The notes beneath the pieces were generated by a model. That model was given only the letters and a program-made list of their open reading frames with translations. It ran no database searches and was not told where the DNA came from. From a bacterium (GTDB taxonomy: Bacteria > Planctomycetota > Planctomycetia > Planctomycetales > Planctomycetaceae), in NCBI GenBank assembly GCA_016124895.1, contig WGMU01000036.1, positions 1-64,000 of the forward strand: DNA of 64,000 nucleotides, in the 5' to 3' direction. Position numbers and translations under genes: made by a program. Below are positions 49,129 to 62,486 of this stretch, in pieces. Position 1 is the first letter of the stretch; every line of letters starts with the position of its first letter.

Positions 49129-50544
49129 TCATTGGGCCGCAAGAGCCTTACGGACGCTATATCGATATTCAGCCCACGCTTCGGGCTTCCAGTCAGCATT
49201 GGGTTTCATGCTTATTTCAGCCTTGAAAAACGACGCAAGTTTCCTGGCAGCCAGATTGCGAACTTCGAGAACTGGAAACATGAATCCAGCACAGGGACCG
49301 CTGAATTTGGGGTTGTCCCTGGCATCGCGGACAGATTGATCATCCAGGAAGCTGGCCAGGAATTCGATTCGCTGCTTGCGATTACGATCGCCGATGTAGC
49401 GATAGTTCATAGGATTCATCAATTGCATTCGGAGCCCAACGTCCGTGCGGTCGGCAACTTCTTTTAATGTTTGCCACGCTTCAGGAGCATCTGTTTCCAT
49501 GACCAGATTAGCGAAGGATGCTTCACGGCAGTTCCAGTATTCGCCATCGGGCGTCGTTGGCAGTTCATTGAGTGTCCGGATGAGTAATTTCACGAATTGA
49601 GCATGGTCTATGTCCTTCATAAGCCAGAAGGCAGCTCGCCGGTGTTCCAGGTTTTCTCGCTCGGCCGCATGGACCAGCAGGGTGAGTTTCTCCTGTCGTG
49701 TCAGTGAACTCTCTCGCAGGGCTACAACAACCGGCCAACTCTGCATGTGTGGCCGATTATCGAGTAGCTTCCGATAGATTTGCGGCAAGTGTTTTGGATA
49801 CCGTTTTGCTATGAGCCATAGATGAAGTGAATTCGGCCATTCGGAATCTTCGTCGAGTGGGATCACGTGGTTGACCAGGTAAGACTCTTCACCTTCCTTG
49901 CTAGCCTTTTTCCACCATGCTGCAGCGTCCATCTTTGCTACCGCATAGCTGGCGCAAATCTGGAGTTCATTCTCCCGCAGTTCACTTCCTGCCAATTCCT
50001 GAAGATATGCACCGACAACGTCCTGGACACGCATAATGAACGGATGGCAGTTGTTAAATCGCGGAACCTTGACTCGGGTTAGTCGCTCGTCGTCCAAATG
50101 TTTGATGAGCGTCGGTACGGCCTCGAATCCGTAGCGAGCAAGTTCTGCGTAGCGTGGATCAATCTGCCCTGACTCGTCCAGGAGACACGAACACCCGTAT
50201 TGTTTCAGCTCCACGAGCCCGTTAGCTGCAGCTTTGACAGTTCCCGGCTGGACGTTGCGCGGCGTTAACGTCTGATCGAGACATTGCAGCAGATATCGAT
50301 TCTCTTCAGTCCCAAGTGTCGGATGCTCATTGAGAAGGTTTCTGAGTTGAACAGCGATCTCGCTTCGGTCGGTGTGTGGTTGAACGAGTTGCTGAAGGCT
50401 TTTCTGCCAGGCTCGTTCGCCAGGTGAATCAGTGGAAAGCATGACGGGATCGAACAACGTGTCGTCGCCGTATGCCGTAGCGAACGATGATGCCATGAAT
50501 ACGAATACAAGTGTGGACAGAACACGATGGAATGCACTTGTCAT
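49129..50544 (-). CDS. Exported protein with HEAT-like helical repeats, lower GC
   Basis: 471 residues with a signal peptide (VLSTLVFVFMASSFATAYG). AGGAG sits 7 bases before the ATG. The mature protein is mainly helical; segments such as RYGFEAVPTLIKHLDDERLTRVKV, LEHRRAAFWLMKDIDHAQFVKLLIRTL and VLEVRNLAARKLASFF look like degenerate HEAT repeats. CSCLLDESG and FNNCHPF contain scattered Cys. Parts of the gene are only about 48% GC by hand count over one 60-base line, well below the flanking genes. That suggests different ancestry or relaxed composition. The role is unknown; a periplasmic scaffold is the simplest guess. Confidence 0.6.
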   Translation of the reverse strand: MTSAFHRVLSTLVFVFMASSFATAYGDDTLFDPVMLSTDSPGERAWQKSLQQLVQPHTDRSEIAVQLRNLLNEHPTLGTEENRYLLQCLDQTLTPRNVQPGTVKAAANGLVELKQYGCSCLLDESGQIDPRYAELARYGFEAVPTLIKHLDDERLTRVKVPRFNNCHPFIMRVQDVVGAYLQELAGSELRENELQICASYAVAKMDAAAWWKKASKEGEESYLVNHVIPLDEDSEWPNSLHLWLIAKRYPKHLPQIYRKLLDNRPHMQSWPVVVALRESSLTRQEKLTLLVHAAERENLEHRRAAFWLMKDIDHAQFVKLLIRTLNELPTTPDGEYWNCREASFANLVMETDAPEAWQTLKEVADRTDVGLRMQLMNPMNYRYIGDRNRKQRIEFLASFLDDQSVRDARDNPKFSGPCAGFMFPVLEVRNLAARKLASFFKAEISMKPNADWKPEAWAEYRYSVRKALAAQ

Positions 50545-50775
50545 TTCGTTCTCCTGAACCCCGTCGACGAATCTCTTGGGGGACCGCCCTGTCGTTTATG
50601 CAGCGATGTGGCTGGTTTACCGGCGACGTTCGGTGATCGCAAGGACAGAATCAGGGCGAGGCATTCTGTCGTTGACGCGTGGCTGCGTCGGGTTCGTTGC
50701 GAGCTGCGGTGGCGGGCTCTCATAATCCCTGCCGCTTGGGACCTGTCGACGAACTCTCCGCGGAAAGAATCACTG

Positions 50776-52131
50776 ATGAGATATCCTGCTGTTGCGCTGC
50801 TGCTGGCTCTGGTTGTTGCGTCTCCGCTGCTGGGGGCTGATGCGCCGCCGAATGTGGTGATGATTATCTCGGACGATCAGGCGTGGACCGATTACGGGTT
50901 CATGGGGCATCCGGATATTCGGACGCCGCGGCTGGATCGACTGGCGTCTGAGAGTGTCGTGTTTCCTCGCGGCTATGTGCCGACGGCGCTGTGCCGGCCG
51001 TCGCTGGTGACGCTGATTACCGGGCAGTACGCGCATACGCATGGTGTGACCGGGAACGATCCCTCGCCAAAGTATGCGAAACCGAACTCCGAGCTGTACA
51101 ACCAGCGGCGGCAGCACCTGATTGACTATCTGGACCGGTTTCAGACGGTGCCGAAGATCCTCGGGAAGCGCGGGTATCTGAGCCATCAGAGCGGTAAGTG
51201 GTGGGAAGGCAGCTATCAGCACGGCGGGTTCACTCACGGCATGACGCGCGGCTTTCCCAAACCCGGCGGGCGGCACGGAGATGACGGGCTGAAGATTGGC
51301 CGCGAGGGCATCGAGCCGGTGGCTGAGTTCGTCGCCGAAGTGACCTCGCAGCACAAGCCGTTCTTTCTGTGGTACGCCCCGTTCCTGCCGCACTCGCCAC
51401 ACACGCCGCCCGAACGCATCCTGAAGAAGTACGAGAAAGAAGGCCGGCCGGAGTCGATCGCGAAGTACTACGCGATGTGTGAATGGTTCGACGAAACCTG
51501 CGGACAGGTCATCGACGTTCTGGAGAAGAATCACCAGCGCGAGAACACGCTGATCGTTTACGTCTGCGACAACGGCTGGATTCAGAGCCCGACGTCGAAA
51601 GGTTACGCGCCGCGGTCGAAGCAGACGCCGTATGAAGGCGGCATCCGCACGCCGATCATGTTCTCCTGGCCGGGACATCTGAAGCCGCAGAAACGTGACG
51701 ATCTGGTCAGCAGCATCGACATCGTCCCGACAATGCTCGCCGCCGCTGGAGCCCCGATCCCGGACGGCCTGCCAGGACTCAACCTGCTGCCCGAGATGAC
51801 GGAACAGAAGCCGATCCCACGCGACACGATCTTCGGCGAAGGCTTCGCGCACGACATTGCCGACGTCGAAAAGCCGGAAGCCTCGCTGCTGTATCGCTGG
51901 ACGATCGAGGGCCGCTGGAAGCTGTTGCTGACGTACGACGGCGAGGTCAACCGCTACCAGTCGACGCACCCGCGTGACGAAAAACGCCCGCAGCTTTTCG
52001 ACTTGATTGCCGATCCGCACGAAACGAAAAATCTCGCCGGCGAGCATCCTGAGATTGTCGCCCGACTGGCAAAGAAGATCGGTGACTGGTATCCCGTCAC
52101 CGAACGCAAGGCGCTGACGACGTTCGAGTAG
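50776..52131 (+). CDS. Exported sulfatase
   Basis: 451 residues from the ATG at 50776, which starts a signal peptide (ALLLALVVASPLLGADA); the frame is open back to 50527 without features. The sulfatase fold is shown by PPNVVMIISDDQAWTDYGFMGHPDIRTPRLDRLA (metal Asp pair), the C73-R-P-S-L77 site, YVCDNGWIQ for the second metal pair, and KQTPYEGGIRTPIMFSWPG. The formylglycine Cys and Pro are present, but the Arg of C-x-P-x-R is Leu, a variant frequent in planctomycete sulfatases. The C-terminal part (PQLFDLIADPHETKNLAGEHPEIVARL) is standard. Substrate unknown; the protein has no extra domain, unlike the sulfatase at 8722. Confidence 0.9.
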   Translation: MRYPAVALLLALVVASPLLGADAPPNVVMIISDDQAWTDYGFMGHPDIRTPRLDRLASESVVFPRGYVPTALCRPSLVTLITGQYAHTHGVTGNDPSPKYAKPNSELYNQRRQHLIDYLDRFQTVPKILGKRGYLSHQSGKWWEGSYQHGGFTHGMTRGFPKPGGRHGDDGLKIGREGIEPVAEFVAEVTSQHKPFFLWYAPFLPHSPHTPPERILKKYEKEGRPESIAKYYAMCEWFDETCGQVIDVLEKNHQRENTLIVYVCDNGWIQSPTSKGYAPRSKQTPYEGGIRTPIMFSWPGHLKPQKRDDLVSSIDIVPTMLAAAGAPIPDGLPGLNLLPEMTEQKPIPRDTIFGEGFAHDIADVEKPEASLLYRWTIEGRWKLLLTYDGEVNRYQSTHPRDEKRPQLFDLIADPHETKNLAGEHPEIVARLAKKIGDWYPVTERKALTTFE

Positions 52132-52145
52132 AGTCAGGGCGATGC

Positions 52146-52253
52146 CTGACGCAAAGCCGCGAAGACGCAGAGACTCGCAAAGTGGCGAAGAGTGTCTGGG
52201 ACATGGGCTGAGATTTCTTTGCGAACCTTCGCACCTCTGCGCCTTTGCGTCAG
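52146..52253. repeat. Long inverted repeat between sulfatase and dapB
   Basis: CTGACGCAAAG (52146-52156) faces its exact reverse complement CTTTGCGTCAG (52243-52253). Inside, CGAAGACGCAGAG-like and CCTCTGCGCC-like stretches add further partial pairing. It could act as a bidirectional transcript end for the sulfatase gene or be an old palindromic insertion; no T-run is visible. Confidence 0.55.
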
Positions 52254-52294
52254 ATGATTTTTGAGAATCCCGAGACAGAGTCACGGAACACAGA

Positions 52295-55607: not shown

Positions 55608-58600
55608 ATGCGACGTCCCTGCCTGCTCGGTCTGTGTCTGATCAGTCTGGCCTGTTTCTTCTCACCCACCGTCGCCGCCGATGGCAACCGGCTGGCGTAT
55701 CTCGATGAGAACAATCCGTGGTATCCGCACACGGACTTTCCGAAGCTGACGACTCCGCAATGGGTTGGTGAGGAAGGCGTCGAGGCGGTCGTGGTGCTGG
55801 CGATTGACGATATGCGCGATCCGGCGAAGTACGAGGCTTACCTGCGGCCGATTCTGCAGCGGCTCAAGCAGATCGACGGACGGGCTCCGGTCAGCATCAT
55901 GACCTGCAACGTCAAACCGGACGATCCACAACTGCAGAGCTGGCTGGCTGAAGGCCTGAGCATCGAAGTTCACACCGTCGATCACCCGTGCCCGCTGCTG
56001 CAGGGCGGGGACTTTGCCAAAGCGAAGAGCACGTACGATCGCTGCATCGACCTGCTGCATCAGATTCCTGGCAACAAGCCGGTCGCGTTCCGGATGCCGT
56101 GCTGCGACTCGCTGAATACCGTCAGCCCGCGGTTCTTCTCGGAGATCTTCAACTCGACAACGCCCGAGGGAAATCACCTGAGCATTTCGTCGAGCGTTTT
56201 CACTCTGTTCACGTCAGCGGACAAGTCGATCCCGCGTGAGCTGGTCCTCAACGAGGATGGCTCCGAACGTTTCCGCCGCTACCTGCCCAAGGGCCTGAAG
56301 CGCGGCGGCGTCGAGCACAATCACTTTTTGAACTGGATCGAGAACTATCCCTATCCGTACGTGATCAACGGCAAATGCTGGGAGTTCCCCTGCGTCGTGC
56401 CGAGCGACTGGTCCGCTCAGTTCCTGCAGCAGCCGAACAACTCAAAGACGGTCGAGGACTGGAAGGCGGTGCTCGACATCACCGTCCACAAGCAGGGCGT
56501 CTTCAACCTGGTGTTCCATCCACACGGCTGGATCAAGGCCGAGCAGGTCGTCGAACTGATCGACCACGCCGTCGCGACGCACGGAAAGAAGGTCAAGTTC
56601 CTGACATTCCGCGAGGCGCTTAACCGGTTGAATCGAAACCTGCTGGCTGAGCATCCGCTGCGTAATCCAGACGGACGTGACAATGGCGTGCGCGTTGTTG
56701 ATGTCGACCGCGACGGATTTCAGGACGTTGTGATTGGTAACGCGGAACATCGCGTCACACGGCTTTGGCATCATCGCGATCGCTCGTGGCACGAGGTCGG
56801 CTTTCCAACGCGGATCGGCAGCGGAGTCCGCTTCACACAGGTGCGCGAGGACGGACACATCAGCGTGCTGGCGCCGTCGCTCGAAGGCCCGACCGCGAAG
56901 CCAATCGTCGTCACAGAAAACGTTCCCGAGCGTGCCTGGTATTTCGATGGCCGCGAGTGGGTTGACGACGACTATCTGCAGCATCTCGTCACGTTTTCTC
57001 AGACGGTACGTGACATGCCCGTTGAGCGGAACGACAAGGCGGTCCCGGTCGTCCATCCGCCGGAGACGCGCACGTGGCGTTTTCGGGATATCGATCACGA
57101 CGGCCGATGCGAAGCGATTGTGACCTGGCGAGCGGTCGCGAAGGACGGATCGTTGAGTGCTCCGAAGAAGTCCGACGTGCAGCTCTTTCAGCCACTGACG
57201 CCTGTCGTGCAGGTTCGCCCTGGCAGTCCGCAGAAGAAGTCGGCTGGCCCGGCGACCTGGCGACAGATGTCGTTTCCGTGGCCGGACGGGTCGGATGTCC
57301 CCGCGGCCGGAATTGATCCTTCGCTTTATCGCTTCGTCGATCTGGACGGGAACGGCAGCGATGATCTGATCGCGTCAACGCAGGTCGGTTCGTTTGTCGC
57401 ATTGTTCGAGGATCTGGAGTCCGGCTGGAGCACTCGGATCCTCAACATGGATTCGTCAAGCCCGCAGTCGCTGCTGCCGATCGTTCGGGAGGACGGCAGC
57501 GACAACGGCTCCTTCGTTCATTCGGGATACCTCGCCTGGCAGAACGAGTGGACGGCGGACCTGCCGGACATGGTGCAGAAGGTGTCGATCGACGAACTGC
57601 TGGGCGGACACCGCCGTCGACAGGCGCGGCTGAAGTTGCCGCCGGTGCCGGTCGGAGCGGCGAAGATCGACATCACACCGGACTATCCGGTCCGGCTGAG
57701 CGGCTACGGCAATCGGCTGACCGAGTCCGAAGGCGTCGCACATCGGATTCATGCGCGGGCGCTGGCGATTGGAGGAAGCGAAACGACTCCACTGACCGTC
57801 CTGCTGACCGTGGATACGTGCGGCGTTCCGACGGAAGTCACTGAGCGCGTCTTCGGCAAGATCGCCAAGACGACTCCGCTGCGGCGCGAGCACTTTGCGA
57901 TCAATTCAACGCATTCGCATTCGGCCCCGTGGCTGATGGGCTTCGCGCCGAACATCTTCGCGGAAGTTCCCGACGATCACCGCGCTCGGCTGCAGCGGTA
58001 CGAAAACGAACTCGTCGAGAAACTGGTGAGCGTGGTGCAGCAGGCGATCGAGAAGCGGCGGCCAGGGCGGCTGTCCATATCGCACGGCGAAGTCGGTTTC
58101 GCCCGCAATCGACGAGTGCTGCAGAACGGGCAGTGGAAAGGTTTCGGCGTTCAGGAAGACGGGCCAGTCGATCATCGGCTGCCGGTGCTGGCCGCTCACG
58201 ATACAGACGGAAAGCTGATTGCCGTGCTGGCGACATACGCCTGCCACTGCACGACCGAGACTGGATCGTTCAACCAGATCAGTGGGGACTGGGCCGGCTT
58301 TGCGGCGGAAGAGATCGAGTCGGACTTTCCAGGAGCCGTCGGGCTGATCTCGATTGGGGCTGGAGCGGATGCGAACCCCGAGCCGCGCGGCACGCACGAA
58401 CTCTCGAAGCAGCACGGCAAGGAACTGGCTCACGAAGTCAAGCGGTTGCTGTTCGAGTCGACAGAACTGGAACTCATTGATCCACGGATCGTGGGGCGGA
58501 TGGCTCGGGTGGATCTGCCGCTGGGGCCGTTACCGACTCGGGAGGAGTGGGAGCAGCGGGCGAAGGAACCGGGGACGCGTGGGTCTCATGCGCGACGATT

Positions 58601-61600
58601 CCTCGCAATGCTCGACCGGGGCGAAGCGGTGCCGACGACGGTGCCGGACTATCCCGTGCAGACATGGTGTTTCGGTGACGATCTGGCGATGGTGTTTCTC
58701 GGCGGCGAGGTCGTTGTCGATTACTCGCTGCGGATGAATGACGCGTTTGACGGCGAGCGGTTGTGGATCAATGCGTACTCGAACGATGTGCCGTGTTACA
58801 TCGCGTCGAAACGAGTGCTCCAGGAAGGCGGGTACGAAGCGGACTTCTCGATGATCTACTACGCCCGCCCGACGCGGCTCGCGCCCGAGACCGAAGACAT
58901 CATCGTCGATACCGTCCAGAAGCTGCTGCCGCCTGAGTTCTACTCGGAAGAGACTCAGCAGGATTTCCCGGCTCCGAAGTCGCCCGAAGATTCGGCCGCC
59001 TGCATTCAGGTGAAGCCGGGCCTGAAAGTCGAACTGGTCGCCGCCGAGCCGCTGATCACCGACCCGGTCGCGTTCGACTGGGATATTCAGGGCCGGTTGT
59101 GGGTCGTCGAGATGGGGGACTATCCGGGGGGAGAAGAGTCCAGAGTTGAGAGTCCAGAGTCCAGAGCCAGACACGCCGGAACCACTGGACTCTCGTCACT
59201 AGACTCTGGACTTCGCAAGGGGCGCATTCGCGTGCTGACTGATGTGGATGGTGACGGGCGGTATGACGAGGCGACGACGTTTCTTGCTGACGTTGCTTTT
59301 CCGTCGGGGATCTGTCGCTGGCGGAATGGTGTGATTGTGACGGCGGCTCCGGAGATCTTTTATGCGGAAGACACCGACGGCGATGGACGGGCCGACGTGC
59401 GGACGACGCTGTTTCGCGGCTTCGGCGAGGGCAATCAGCAGCACCGGGTGAATGGCCTGCGATGGGGCCTCGATGGCTGGCTGCATGTCGGGAATGGCGA
59501 CAGTGGCGGAAGCATTGAGTCAGTGGGCAGGGTTGAAGGGGTGAGGCATGAGGGTCGAGGGCCGAGTCAGAGCAGCGACCTTGAGCCGCATGCCTCGGCC
59601 CTCGGCCATGCGATCAATGTCAGTGGTCGGGATTTGCGGATCAATCCCGATACCGGCGAGATGGAAGCGACGTCCGGGCAGACGCAGTTCGGGCGGGCTC
59701 GCGACGACTGGGGCAACTGGTTTGGGAATAACAACTCGAACCCGATCTGGCATTACGTGCTCGACGAGCATGACCTGCGACGGAATCCGCATGCTCCGGT
59801 GAGCACGACGAAGGCGATGATCGCCGTTGTGCCCGGTGCCGCTCCGGTGTTTCCCGTCAGTCGCACGCTGTCCCGCTTCAATGACTTCGATAAGACAAAC
59901 CGGTTCACCTCGGCCTGCAGCACGACGATTTATCGTGACAATCTGCTGGGCGAAGAGTTCTACGGCGACGCGTTTGTCTGCGAGCCGGTGCATAACCTGG
60001 TTTCGCGACTGGTGCTGACACCTGATGGTGTGACGTTCAAAGCGGAACGCTCGCCGAATGAACGCGACTCGGAGTTTTTCGCGTCGAGCGACAACTGGAC
60101 GCGTCCGGTCATGGTCCGCACCGGTCCGGACGGAGCACTCTGGGTCGCCGATATGTACCGTTTTGTGATCGAGCATCCGAAATGGATTCCGGCCGAGCAG
60201 CAGCGGAAGCTCGACGTCTATGCTGGCTCGGACCGCGGGCGCATTTATCGCATCGTGCGGGAGTCGAACTCGGCGTGTTGCGGCGCCGCGGAGGACATAT
60301 CTTCGCAGCCCGAGTCGTCAGGACCGAGAAGCTGGCTGACAGAGAAGTGGGACGAAGTCGCCGTCGAACAGCTTTGCGATCGGCTGGCCAGTCCCAATGG
60401 ATGGTGGCGAGATGCTGCACATCGAATTCTGCTGCAACGAGCCACAGACGACTCGTCAAGAGATTTCAATGCTCCGGCCGATCTTCCGAAGATTGCCGGA
60501 ACAAACCCGTTGCCACAAATTCGAGTTCAGGCGATGTGCGCGGCGGTCGGACTTGGTGTCGATGTCGACTTCCTGAAGTTGCTTTCCGATCCGAGCCCGA
60601 TGGTCCGTGGTCAGGCCGTGCGGCTGGCAACTCCGCTGGCCTGGCCCGAGGGCGTTGTCCCCAGCAGCGATTCCGGGCCGCAGCGACAACTGCAGGCCGC
60701 GATACTCCAGCGAGTGAACGATTCCGAGCCGACTGTTCAGTTTCAGCTCGCGATTGCTCTGGGGAATGTGGCAACCACTCTCGGATACAGGCTTCCCGCG
60801 ATGACACTTGGCAAGCTGCTGATCAACAACGCGGACGATCCGTGGATCACAGCAGCCGCCATCAGTTCGTTGAACGAGTCGAATGTTGAGGACGTTCTCT
60901 CAACCGTCCTGCGAGAGCTGCCGAGCGCTCACGTGGGCAGCGATCTGACGGCCAGAGTTGTTGCTCAGGCGGTGGCCTTTGGAAAGGTTGAAGCTGTCAG
61001 ACAGCACGTGGTGTCACTGATTCCTGACGATCAGGCGACGAGCGGTGCCATTTGGGGTCTTGCGGCTTCAATCATCCGGCAGATCAAAGGACAGGATTCT
61101 GGATGGAAAGCCTTGACGGCTGACGCGGCATTCGGAGAGCGACTGGACAGAGCCGTTGCGACTGCGATCGCAGTCGCCGTCGATCGAACGCAGAATGACG
61201 TTCAACGATTTGCGGCGATGCAACTGGCGGGTGACTCCGGCCTGCTTGATGCCGATCAGATCGAACGGCTGGCAACCGTTATCGCGCCGCAGTCGAGTCT
61301 GGAATTGCAGTCAGCAGCCGTTGCCGCCATCGCCGACAGCGGAAGCGACGGATCGGTCAAGACACTACTCTCGCGGTGGAAGCAGAGTTCACCTGCAATC
61401 CGCACCTCGATCGCTGATGCACTGCTGGGCCGCCGGTCGTGGACGGAGTTGCTTCTTAAGGCCATCGAAGATGGAGTTGTCTCGCCGGCCGATCTTGATG
61501 CGGCGCGGCGGGAGCGGTTGCTGACTCATCGCGATGCGGCGATTCGCGAGCGAGCCGGAAAGCTGCTGGGCGGTTCGGCGACGACGGATCGGCAGGCAGT

Positions 61601-62486
61601 CGTTGAGGCGAATCGGTCGGTGCTCGAACTGCCAGCCGATGCGACGCGCGGGCGGGTGGTGTTTGAGAAGCGGTGTTCGGCGTGTCACAAGGTCGGGGAA
61701 CTCGGCAAGTCGATCGGAGCGGACCTGTCGGCACTGCGGGATCGTTCGGGAGAGGCTTTGTTGACGGCGATTCTCGATCCCAACCGGGCGGTCGAGGCGA
61801 AGTTTCTGAGTTACATCGCGGTGACAAAGGACGGACGGTCGTTCTCGGGGATGCTGCTGTCCGAGACCGGCAACAACCTGACGCTGATCGGCACCGACGG
61901 AAAAGAACAGACGCTGCTGCGGAGCGATCTCGAGGAACTCGTCGCGACGAACCGGTCGCTGATGCCCGAAGGTCTGGAGAAGGATCTCGCGCCGCAGAAT
62001 CTGGCGGACGTGATTGCTTTCGTGCAGTCGGCTGGCGGGACGTGGAAGTCGCTGCCCGGCAATCAGCCGCGCGTGGTTGCGGCTGGCGATGATGGCTCGC
62101 TGCTGCTGCCGGCTGACGCCGCGGAGATTTACGGGCCGTCGCTGATCCTCGAACAGAAGTACGGCAACCTGGGCTGGTGGTCGAGTATCGACGACTACGC
62201 GGTCTGGACGATCGAAACGAAGTCGTCCGGCTTCTACCGCGTCGAGCTGGAGTACGCCTGCCACGACTCGACGTCCGGCAGCCCGATCCGGTTCTCGACG
62301 GGGACGCGTCTCCTGACTGCTCGCGTTCCGGGAACAGGAACCTGGGACAACTACCGCACCTGGTCCGCCGGAGAAATCGACCTGCGGCGTGGTCGGCAAC
62401 AGTTGACGGTGTCCGCGCCCGTGAAGCCAGCGCAGGCGCTGATCGATCTGAAGGCGATTCGGCTGTTTCCCATTGAGGCTCGTTGA
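55608..62486 (+). CDS. Giant exported fusion: deacetylase-like, VCBS, ceramidase-like, PVC dehydrogenase, HEAT, cytochrome c, CBM-like
   Basis: 2292 residues from the ATG at 55608 (GAGG upstream; signal peptide to about residue 24). In order: a polysaccharide-deacetylase-like domain (about 27-350; VLAIDDMRDP, EVHTVDHPCPL, FRMPCCDS); a VCBS-type stretch (VDVDRDGFQDVVIGN, about 361); a neutral-ceramidase-like domain (about 681-1111; VGAAKIDITPDYPVRLSGYG, INSTHSHSAP, TYACHCTTETG); a PVC membrane-bound dehydrogenase propeller (about 1131-1548; KVELVAAEPLITDPVAFDWD); HEAT repeats (about 1585-1985); a TIGR02603-type haem segment with CSACH at 2023-2027; and a C-terminal carbohydrate-binding-like sandwich (about 2161-2292). 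Two in-frame repeat segments interrupt the dehydrogenase part. Such parts normally occur in separate proteins. Predicted periplasmic and redox-active. Confidence 0.85.
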   Translation: MRRPCLLGLCLISLACFFSPTVAADGNRLAYLDENNPWYPHTDFPKLTTPQWVGEEGVEAVVVLAIDDMRDPAKYEAYLRPILQRLKQIDGRAPVSIMTCNVKPDDPQLQSWLAEGLSIEVHTVDHPCPLLQGGDFAKAKSTYDRCIDLLHQIPGNKPVAFRMPCCDSLNTVSPRFFSEIFNSTTPEGNHLSISSSVFTLFTSADKSIPRELVLNEDGSERFRRYLPKGLKRGGVEHNHFLNWIENYPYPYVINGKCWEFPCVVPSDWSAQFLQQPNNSKTVEDWKAVLDITVHKQGVFNLVFHPHGWIKAEQVVELIDHAVATHGKKVKFLTFREALNRLNRNLLAEHPLRNPDGRDNGVRVVDVDRDGFQDVVIGNAEHRVTRLWHHRDRSWHEVGFPTRIGSGVRFTQVREDGHISVLAPSLEGPTAKPIVVTENVPERAWYFDGREWVDDDYLQHLVTFSQTVRDMPVERNDKAVPVVHPPETRTWRFRDIDHDGRCEAIVTWRAVAKDGSLSAPKKSDVQLFQPLTPVVQVRPGSPQKKSAGPATWRQMSFPWPDGSDVPAAGIDPSLYRFVDLDGNGSDDLIASTQVGSFVALFEDLESGWSTRILNMDSSSPQSLLPIVREDGSDNGSFVHSGYLAWQNEWTADLPDMVQKVSIDELLGGHRRRQARLKLPPVPVGAAKIDITPDYPVRLSGYGNRLTESEGVAHRIHARALAIGGSETTPLTVLLTVDTCGVPTEVTERVFGKIAKTTPLRREHFAINSTHSHSAPWLMGFAPNIFAEVPDDHRARLQRYENELVEKLVSVVQQAIEKRRPGRLSISHGEVGFARNRRVLQNGQWKGFGVQEDGPVDHRLPVLAAHDTDGKLIAVLATYACHCTTETGSFNQISGDWAGFAAEEIESDFPGAVGLISIGAGADANPEPRGTHELSKQHGKELAHEVKRLLFESTELELIDPRIVGRMARVDLPLGPLPTREEWEQRAKEPGTRGSHARRFLAMLDRGEAVPTTVPDYPVQTWCFGDDLAMVFLGGEVVVDYSLRMNDAFDGERLWINAYSNDVPCYIASKRVLQEGGYEADFSMIYYARPTRLAPETEDIIVDTVQKLLPPEFYSEETQQDFPAPKSPEDSAACIQVKPGLKVELVAAEPLITDPVAFDWDIQGRLWVVEMGDYPGGEESRVESPESRARHAGTTGLSSLDSGLRKGRIRVLTDVDGDGRYDEATTFLADVAFPSGICRWRNGVIVTAAPEIFYAEDTDGDGRADVRTTLFRGFGEGNQQHRVNGLRWGLDGWLHVGNGDSGGSIESVGRVEGVRHEGRGPSQSSDLEPHASALGHAINVSGRDLRINPDTGEMEATSGQTQFGRARDDWGNWFGNNNSNPIWHYVLDEHDLRRNPHAPVSTTKAMIAVVPGAAPVFPVSRTLSRFNDFDKTNRFTSACSTTIYRDNLLGEEFYGDAFVCEPVHNLVSRLVLTPDGVTFKAERSPNERDSEFFASSDNWTRPVMVRTGPDGALWVADMYRFVIEHPKWIPAEQQRKLDVYAGSDRGRIYRIVRESNSACCGAAEDISSQPESSGPRSWLTEKWDEVAVEQLCDRLASPNGWWRDAAHRILLQRATDDSSRDFNAPADLPKIAGTNPLPQIRVQAMCAAVGLGVDVDFLKLLSDPSPMVRGQAVRLATPLAWPEGVVPSSDSGPQRQLQAAILQRVNDSEPTVQFQLAIALGNVATTLGYRLPAMTLGKLLINNADDPWITAAAISSLNESNVEDVLSTVLRELPSAHVGSDLTARVVAQAVAFGKVEAVRQHVVSLIPDDQATSGAIWGLAASIIRQIKGQDSGWKALTADAAFGERLDRAVATAIAVAVDRTQNDVQRFAAMQLAGDSGLLDADQIERLATVIAPQSSLELQSAAVAAIADSGSDGSVKTLLSRWKQSSPAIRTSIADALLGRRSWTELLLKAIEDGVVSPADLDAARRERLLTHRDAAIRERAGKLLGGSATTDRQAVVEANRSVLELPADATRGRVVFEKRCSACHKVGELGKSIGADLSALRDRSGEALLTAILDPNRAVEAKFLSYIAVTKDGRSFSGMLLSETGNNLTLIGTDGKEQTLLRSDLEELVATNRSLMPEGLEKDLAPQNLADVIAFVQSAGGTWKSLPGNQPRVVAAGDDGSLLLPADAAEIYGPSLILEQKYGNLGWWSSIDDYAVWTIETKSSGFYRVELEYACHDSTSGSPIRFSTGTRLLTARVPGTGTWDNYRTWSAGEIDLRRGRQQLTVSAPVKPAQALIDLKAIRLFPIEAR
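59137..59212 (+). repeat. In-frame palindromic repeat inside the giant fusion gene, site 1
   Basis: AGTCCAGAGT occurs at 59137-59146 and 59151-59160; its reverse complement ACTCTGGACT is at 59203-59212, and GAGAGTCCAG (59148-59157) faces CTGGACTCTC (59185-59194). The encoded stretch, rich in Ser, Glu and Arg, sits between GDYPGG and GRIRVLTD, which are adjacent or separated by a few residues in normal PVC dehydrogenases. The insertion keeps the reading frame. Confidence 0.7.
59521..59615 (+). repeat. In-frame palindromic repeat inside the giant fusion gene, site 2
   Basis: CGAGGGCCGAG (59556-59566) faces its exact reverse complement CTCGGCCCTCG (59594-59604), with further pairing near GGCATG and GCATGCC. 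The translated stretch, starting VGRVEGVRHEGRG, separates GNGDSGGSIES from SGRDLRINPDTGEMEATSG, which are close together in the usual family. The frame is kept. Confidence 0.65.

Follow-up and report, generated by a model that had tools for sequence, protein, structure and literature searches.

The gene at positions 55608 to 62486 (forward strand) of the window, the whole stretch of 64,000 nucleotides analysed here, is a single, genuine gene without interruption and encodes a very large protein. It starts with an ATG at 55608, ends with a stop codon at 62484-62486 and has no internal stops in its 2292 codons. The product is a real, conserved and unusually long PVC-type haem protein, and through it an orphan redox family becomes linked to deacylation and to the binding of carbohydrates. 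In order, the chain consists of a signal peptide, a CE4-type deacetylase, an FG-GAP/VCBS region, a hydrolase with the neutral ceramidase fold, a PVC-type DUF7133 propeller, HEAT repeats, a haem c domain and a CBM6/35-like tail. There is about an even chance that this is one secreted, modular carbohydrate-processing enzyme, working by a scheme of deacylation, oxidation and haem transfer. The best reading of sequence and models is a secreted core resembling a quinohaemoprotein sugar oxidase, which would carry accessory deacylases on the same chain. Its chemistry, substrate and cofactor are things that we infer.

GC content per codon position was computed in 11 blocks of 600 bases along the gene. 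The second position is lowest in GC in all 11 blocks and the third is richest in 8; in the remaining three (58008-58607, 60408-61007 and 61008-61607), the first position is level with the third or slightly above it. This pattern is consistent with a single continuous coding frame. Alone it is no proof, and comparison is decisive.

The comparison set consisted of 101 genomes of the family plus GTDB contigs. The full-length order is free of stops in 8 further distinct proteins (loci L009/L078, L010/L080, L011, L012, L038, L079, L081 and L083). Of these, L012 is a 2423-codon frame in its own genome, and L038 comes from a single-contig genome of 8.9 Mb. A further full-length case is divided over two contig ends, with residues 24-725 on one and 727-2289 on the other. 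In a same-genus genome, a contig edge cuts the gene: a nearly identical sequence starts in frame at the last ceramidase-like residues (KLLPPEFYSEETQQDF) and runs on into DUF7133. The N-terminus is missing from this fragmented assembly, in which no deacetylase was found at E 1e-60. An earlier note on this DNA had described a 2292-residue single-chain fusion; its coordinates and length are exact, and the stop-free fusion recurs in at least eight other species, spread over several genera. The domains it named are likewise borne out by Pfam and NCBIfam models and by fold matches, with FG-GAP and CBM_6 scoring under cut-off.

For a wider view, the protein was cut into seven segments and searched against 157 loci. 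Four architectures emerge. These are A, deacetylase-FG-GAP-ceramidase-core; B, ceramidase-core; C, deacetylase-FG-GAP-core; and E, core only. The shared core consists of DUF7133 propeller-HEAT-haem c-CBM, with the deacetylase-FG-GAP module and the ceramidase-fold cassette added on its N-terminal side. A script labelled the 149 core-containing frames as 13 A, 68 B, 48 C and 20 E, counts in which a gene present in two collections can appear twice and genes cut off at contig ends are included. B also occurs in Verrucomicrobia, as the taxon is stated in the sequence record. The full-length form is the longest of these architectures, which together span Planctomycetota and Verrucomicrobia. The earlier note had these domains normally belonging to several proteins, which does not hold here: fusion is the usual state in the PVC-core family, B- and C-type fusions occur widely, and adding them together gives the seven-domain form. 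Its suggestion to look at the distribution in planctomycete genomes paid off, with the same architecture in at least eight further species and shorter versions widespread. Relatives of the same design in this number, together with the many shorter versions, make this a real modular enzyme family. A search of plasmids gave no full-length match to the window protein. In the literature search DUF7133 went unmentioned and no combination of ceramidase and planctomycete turned up, which does not prove that none exists.

Two AlphaFold models cover residues 1-1120 (pLDDT 85.9) and 1115-2292 (pLDDT 86.2). A signal peptide is predicted at residues 1-24 (MRRPCLLGLCLISLACFFSPTVAA; 55608..55679) as read from the sequence, and residues 1-27 have low model confidence. 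The 2292-residue protein is probably secreted.

The CE4/NodB-type deacetylase domain spans residues 30-350 (55695..56657). PF01522 (Polysacc_deac_1) scores 25.8 bits against a cut-off of 23.1, and the AlphaFold model matches the solved structures 3rxz (Z 19.5) and PuuE 3cl6 (Z 18.6). The CE4 motif set is present, namely DD, H(S/T)xxH (here HTxxH), RxP and the His of an LxH-type motif. D67, D68, H122, H126, R162 and H304 are kept in 55-56 of 56 rows, as is P164. The domain has the NodB-like barrel and the DD, HTxxH, RxP and H motifs in common with polysaccharide deacetylases of the CE4 and PuuE type. It differs from them in its setting: in a phylum sample, 15 of the 17 placed homologues lie in long fused frames of over 1100 codons, and the two shortest of the 15 contain DUF7133. 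The FG-GAP/VCBS region that follows (residues 355-670; 56670..57617) is recognised from alignment and from scores of 21.7 (FG-GAP_3) and 14.8 bits, both under the Pfam cut-off. It is optional, being largely missing from L010, L011 and L038.

Residues 678-1112 (57639..58943) form a metallohydrolase domain with the fold of neutral ceramidase. PF04734 (Ceramidase_alk) scores 74.3 bits, where 32.1 is the cut-off. The AlphaFold model matches the Pseudomonas enzyme 2zws at Z 39.0 (3.4 A, 396 residues) and the human one, 4wgk, at Z 36.0. The presumed zinc ligands H769, H880, E1034 and Y1064 are invariant in all 72 rows (9/9 A and 63/63 B); H769 and H771 sit in a THSHSAP motif. H97 and H204 of 2zws are the aligned counterparts of H769 and H880; we take the 2zws ligands to be two His, a Glu and a Tyr, and E1034 was placed among the ligands by eye.

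The fold and the aligned zinc ligands are what the domain has in common with neutral ceramidases. It differs in being without their C-terminal part, and in having GxGADxNP (GAGADANP in the window protein) in the presumed nucleophile region. The catalytic nucleophile of neutral ceramidase is a serine, Ser274 in PaCD. The local alignment here is ambiguous, the yardstick L167 having GDVTGN; read through it, position 922 is mostly Ala, Gln or Ser, with Ser in 1 of 9 A rows and 10 of 63 B rows. The curated neutral ceramidase equivalog NF041649 gives 29.4 bits where 1200 are needed, which rules out a true neutral ceramidase. From the earlier label of neutral-ceramidase-like with an HSHSAP motif, the fold and the zinc ligands survive and the ceramidase function does not.

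The six-bladed, PVC-type DUF7133 propeller occupies residues 1121-1556 (58968..60275). It scores 519.8 bits with PF23500/DUF7133 (cut-off 27) and 279.7 bits with TIGR02604 (cut-off 122.2). In the AlphaFold model, residues ~1136-1554 match the PQQ sugar dehydrogenase 3a9g at Z 24.8 (3.1 A over 285), followed by 2ism and 7cgz at Z 24.2 and by 7cdy, 3das and 2g8s at Z 22-23. In alignments, among them a profile alignment of low probability, His1279 (59442..59444) stands opposite the catalytic His of GSDH-family proteins (HNGG motif; His144 in sGDH). We infer sugar oxidation from the fold match and this one catalytic-type His.

It is somewhat unlikely that the propeller is instead non-redox, with DUF7133 binding or acting like a lactonase, the haem c docking or sensing, and the two hydrolases being the active parts. 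Propellers of the SMP30/lactonase type do appear at Z 21 in the same match list, but only after the six best matches, all of them PQQ-type sugar dehydrogenases. His1279 is replaced by Ala in 35 of 64 B rows, with His in 25 of them; it is however invariant in the full-length (9/9 A) and deacetylase-type (42/42 C) proteins. The PQQ synthesis genes went undetected in the genome, while the invariant haem ligands described below suggest electron flow. Given Ala in over half of the B rows, not every such core has to be an oxidase, and some of the B lineage may have given up redox function. A large B lineage (for example L030, L064-L073 and L102) has Ala for the presumed catalytic His and retains the haem ligands.

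For a sugar oxidase core, the cofactor and the substrate are the weak points. PF07995, the model of the PQQ sugar dehydrogenase family, has no match up to E 1 in the window protein. The GSDH profile alignment is weak (probability about 4%) and places TQ opposite the PQQ-binding RN, with no Arg at the usual PQQ position. In the window genome, which is rated 99.8% complete, PqqE had no match above cut-off and PqqC had none, the PqqC control being silent as well. PQQ or a comparable cofactor would probably be taken up from outside.

Within the DUF7133 domain, and in frame, lies a dispersed palindromic repeat (59135..59225, forward strand; hairpin z -3.94). It has 56 matching segments in its own genome, itself included, at E up to 1, and is absent from the same-genus relative. 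It is a mobile-like hairpin repeat that is tolerated inside the gene. DUF7133 also holds a second strong hairpin (59536-59617), located in a variable loop and with only weak matches elsewhere in the genome. There is also a repeat-like intergenic hairpin at 52145-52290, in the gap between the sulfatase gene and dapB.

The HEAT-type alpha-alpha repeat spacer (residues 1580-2005; 60345..61622) shows as helical pairs in the model, and HEAT_2 (PF13646) scores 28.3 bits against a cut-off of 27.7. It evolves fast: here the full-length and C-type relatives of the crown are 27-35% identical, and the same-genus protein 44%. It is followed by a His/Met-ligated haem c domain (residues 2008-2145; 61629..62042), with TIGR02603 at 115.3 bits (cut-off 68.15) and PF00034 at 22.8 bits (cut-off 21.3). 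This domain resembles Kustd1711 (7zs0, matched by sequence at E 1e-7), a cytochrome with His/Met ligation and a potential of about +350 mV (PMC11791136). The CSACH haem-binding motif that had been pointed out earlier is at residues 2023-2027 (61674..61688), and the ligands C2023, C2026, H2027 and M2119 are present in 139 of 139 rows. The C-terminal carbohydrate-binding-like domain was also seen correctly. Residues 2150-2292 (62055..62483) form a beta-sandwich like CBM6/CBM35, which Foldseek matches to CBM35 2w1w (target TM 0.78) and CBM6 2cdp (0.62-0.69); Pfam CBM_6 reaches 14.3 bits, under its cut-off.

Parts of this design are known from elsewhere. PVC-type haem-binding CxxCH proteins (TIGR02604 plus TIGR02603; DUF7133) combine propeller, HEAT and a haem c at the C-terminus in a single chain, like the window protein. 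Its nearest paralogues in the window genome, where 62 segments match it, are about 1010-1070 residues long and lack the deacetylase, FG-GAP, ceramidase-fold and CBM parts. The characterised fungal pyranose dehydrogenase CcPDH, a quinohaemoprotein and the nearest working model, joins an AA12 PQQ propeller, an AA8 cytochrome b and a CBM1 in a single chain (PMC4332668, PMC6881789). CcPDH is secreted and unites the sugar-dehydrogenase propeller with a cytochrome and a carbohydrate-binding module, as by prediction does the window protein, whose propeller fold matches CcPDH 6jt5 at Z 19.8 and AA12 6i1q at Z 20.6. CcPDH differs in its haem b of another fold and its lack of hydrolase domains, and no sequence match to the window protein was found.

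Another parallel is WP_013368537 (L218:982-3732) on plasmid pKvSKV1 of Ketogulonicigenium vulgare. This is a DUF7133-HEAT protein, 28% identical and with the equivalent His (EHNPNG), and its gene adjoins a separate gene for a small cytochrome c. The pair, which the window protein has fused, is by its sequence apparently a two-gene version of the core, without hydrolase domains. K. vulgare lies outside the PVC phyla. It makes PQQ (PMC5960096), and the gene pair is a tractable test case. The activity of WP_013368537 was sought in PMC6293013 and PMC5960096 and not found there, and neither paper established it as a sorbosone dehydrogenase.

Gene-neighbourhood clustering of 72 loci gave no conserved operon partners that hint at a substrate. 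Only DUF1501-like, sulfatase-like and PSCyt-like families recur, in 6-11 of the 72 loci, and from their sequences are judged to be common planctomycete background. The window has a sulfatase gene at 50527-52131. Some PVC cytochrome proteins bear CBMs and sit near sulfatases (PMC5615132).

Another, improbable possibility is a polyprotein-like chain that is cleaved after secretion into hydrolase and cytochrome proteins, so that the fusion couples only their expression. The components are indeed also found as separate genes: a deacetylase-FG-GAP protein of 623-673 residues, a DUF7133-HEAT-haem protein of 1000 residues, and a ceramidase-like domain alone. Against cleavage, C-type relatives align without gaps from the deacetylase through FG-GAP, and the junctions are conserved. 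The alignment with L106, for example, is gap-free over residues 20-665 at 73% identity, and resumes at residue 1119. It skips the ceramidase-like block, which is thus a discrete cassette of about 450 residues that is missing from co-linear relatives. Separate genes in relatives had been named earlier as evidence against the fusion, and some exist. L082, for one, has a B fusion and also, some 4 kb off on the opposite strand, a deacetylase-FG-GAP gene that stands by itself. This makes the parts separable; it leaves the fusion unharmed, with full-length frames in at least eight species.

A tree of the core places nine A proteins, two without deacetylase, one with deacetylase fragments and the same-genus protein in one group (support 100/99), with C-type proteins as neighbours. 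Since the group has only isolated losses of the deacetylase, the arrangement persists. In the ceramidase-domain tree, as in that of the core, the B-type L082, L090 and L016-18 fall close to the A group. As to whether the full order is ancestral to the deacetylase-only type, the AU test does not reject one clade that holds all full-length proteins (p-AU 0.166). Among otherwise full-length relatives, the deacetylase has decayed to fragments in L039/L084 and is lost in L040.

Domain-shuffling noise, with the extra N-terminal domains as passengers without joint function, is very unlikely. Architectures do switch repeatedly on the tree, and the deacetylase is fragmentary in L039/L084 and absent from L040 and L015. 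Nonetheless, the ligands of every catalytic domain are unchanged even as identity in the HEAT spacer falls to about 30%, a sign that each domain is under selection. An assembly or frameshift artefact that fused adjacent genes has practically no chance: the window genome is a 195-contig draft, but independent, equally continuous frames are found in no fewer than eight other species, including one whose genome is a single contig, and rule this out.

Within the reading of a secreted oxidase core with accessory deacylases, the steps would be as follows. The CBM-like tail would hold a glycan or glycolipid, from which the metal-dependent deacetylase would strip acetyl groups and the ceramidase-fold domain would take off a second group, acyl or amide-linked. 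The propeller would then oxidise the exposed sugar like a soluble aldose dehydrogenase, with PQQ or a comparable cofactor. The chain's own His/Met haem c would receive the electrons and hand them to an acceptor in the periplasm, and the HEAT stretch would act as a variable spacer, giving the haem domain access to the propeller. The earlier note had imagined a chain that deacylates, oxidises and passes on electrons. The single chain stands, and conserved ligands and catalytic-type residues in the full-length type make such a chain plausible. The undetected PQQ genes count against the oxidation step, for which the PQQ ligands could not be mapped reliably.

A stronger, coupled version is rather unlikely. 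In it, the two deacylases expose the sugar, the same chain oxidises it, its own haem c takes the electrons, and the N-terminal modules are swapped from species to species to suit the substrate. If true, deprotection and oxidation of an acylated glycan or glycolipid would be physically coupled, by way of two metal-dependent deacylases of different folds.

Planctomycetes and Verrucomicrobia have many PVC-type haem proteins per genome that are orphans in function. That the PVC core is joined repeatedly and interchangeably to two deacylase-type domains and a sugar-binding tail leads to the hypothesis of oxidative processing of acylated carbohydrates. The domain combination in this way offers candidate substrates for a large orphan redox family.
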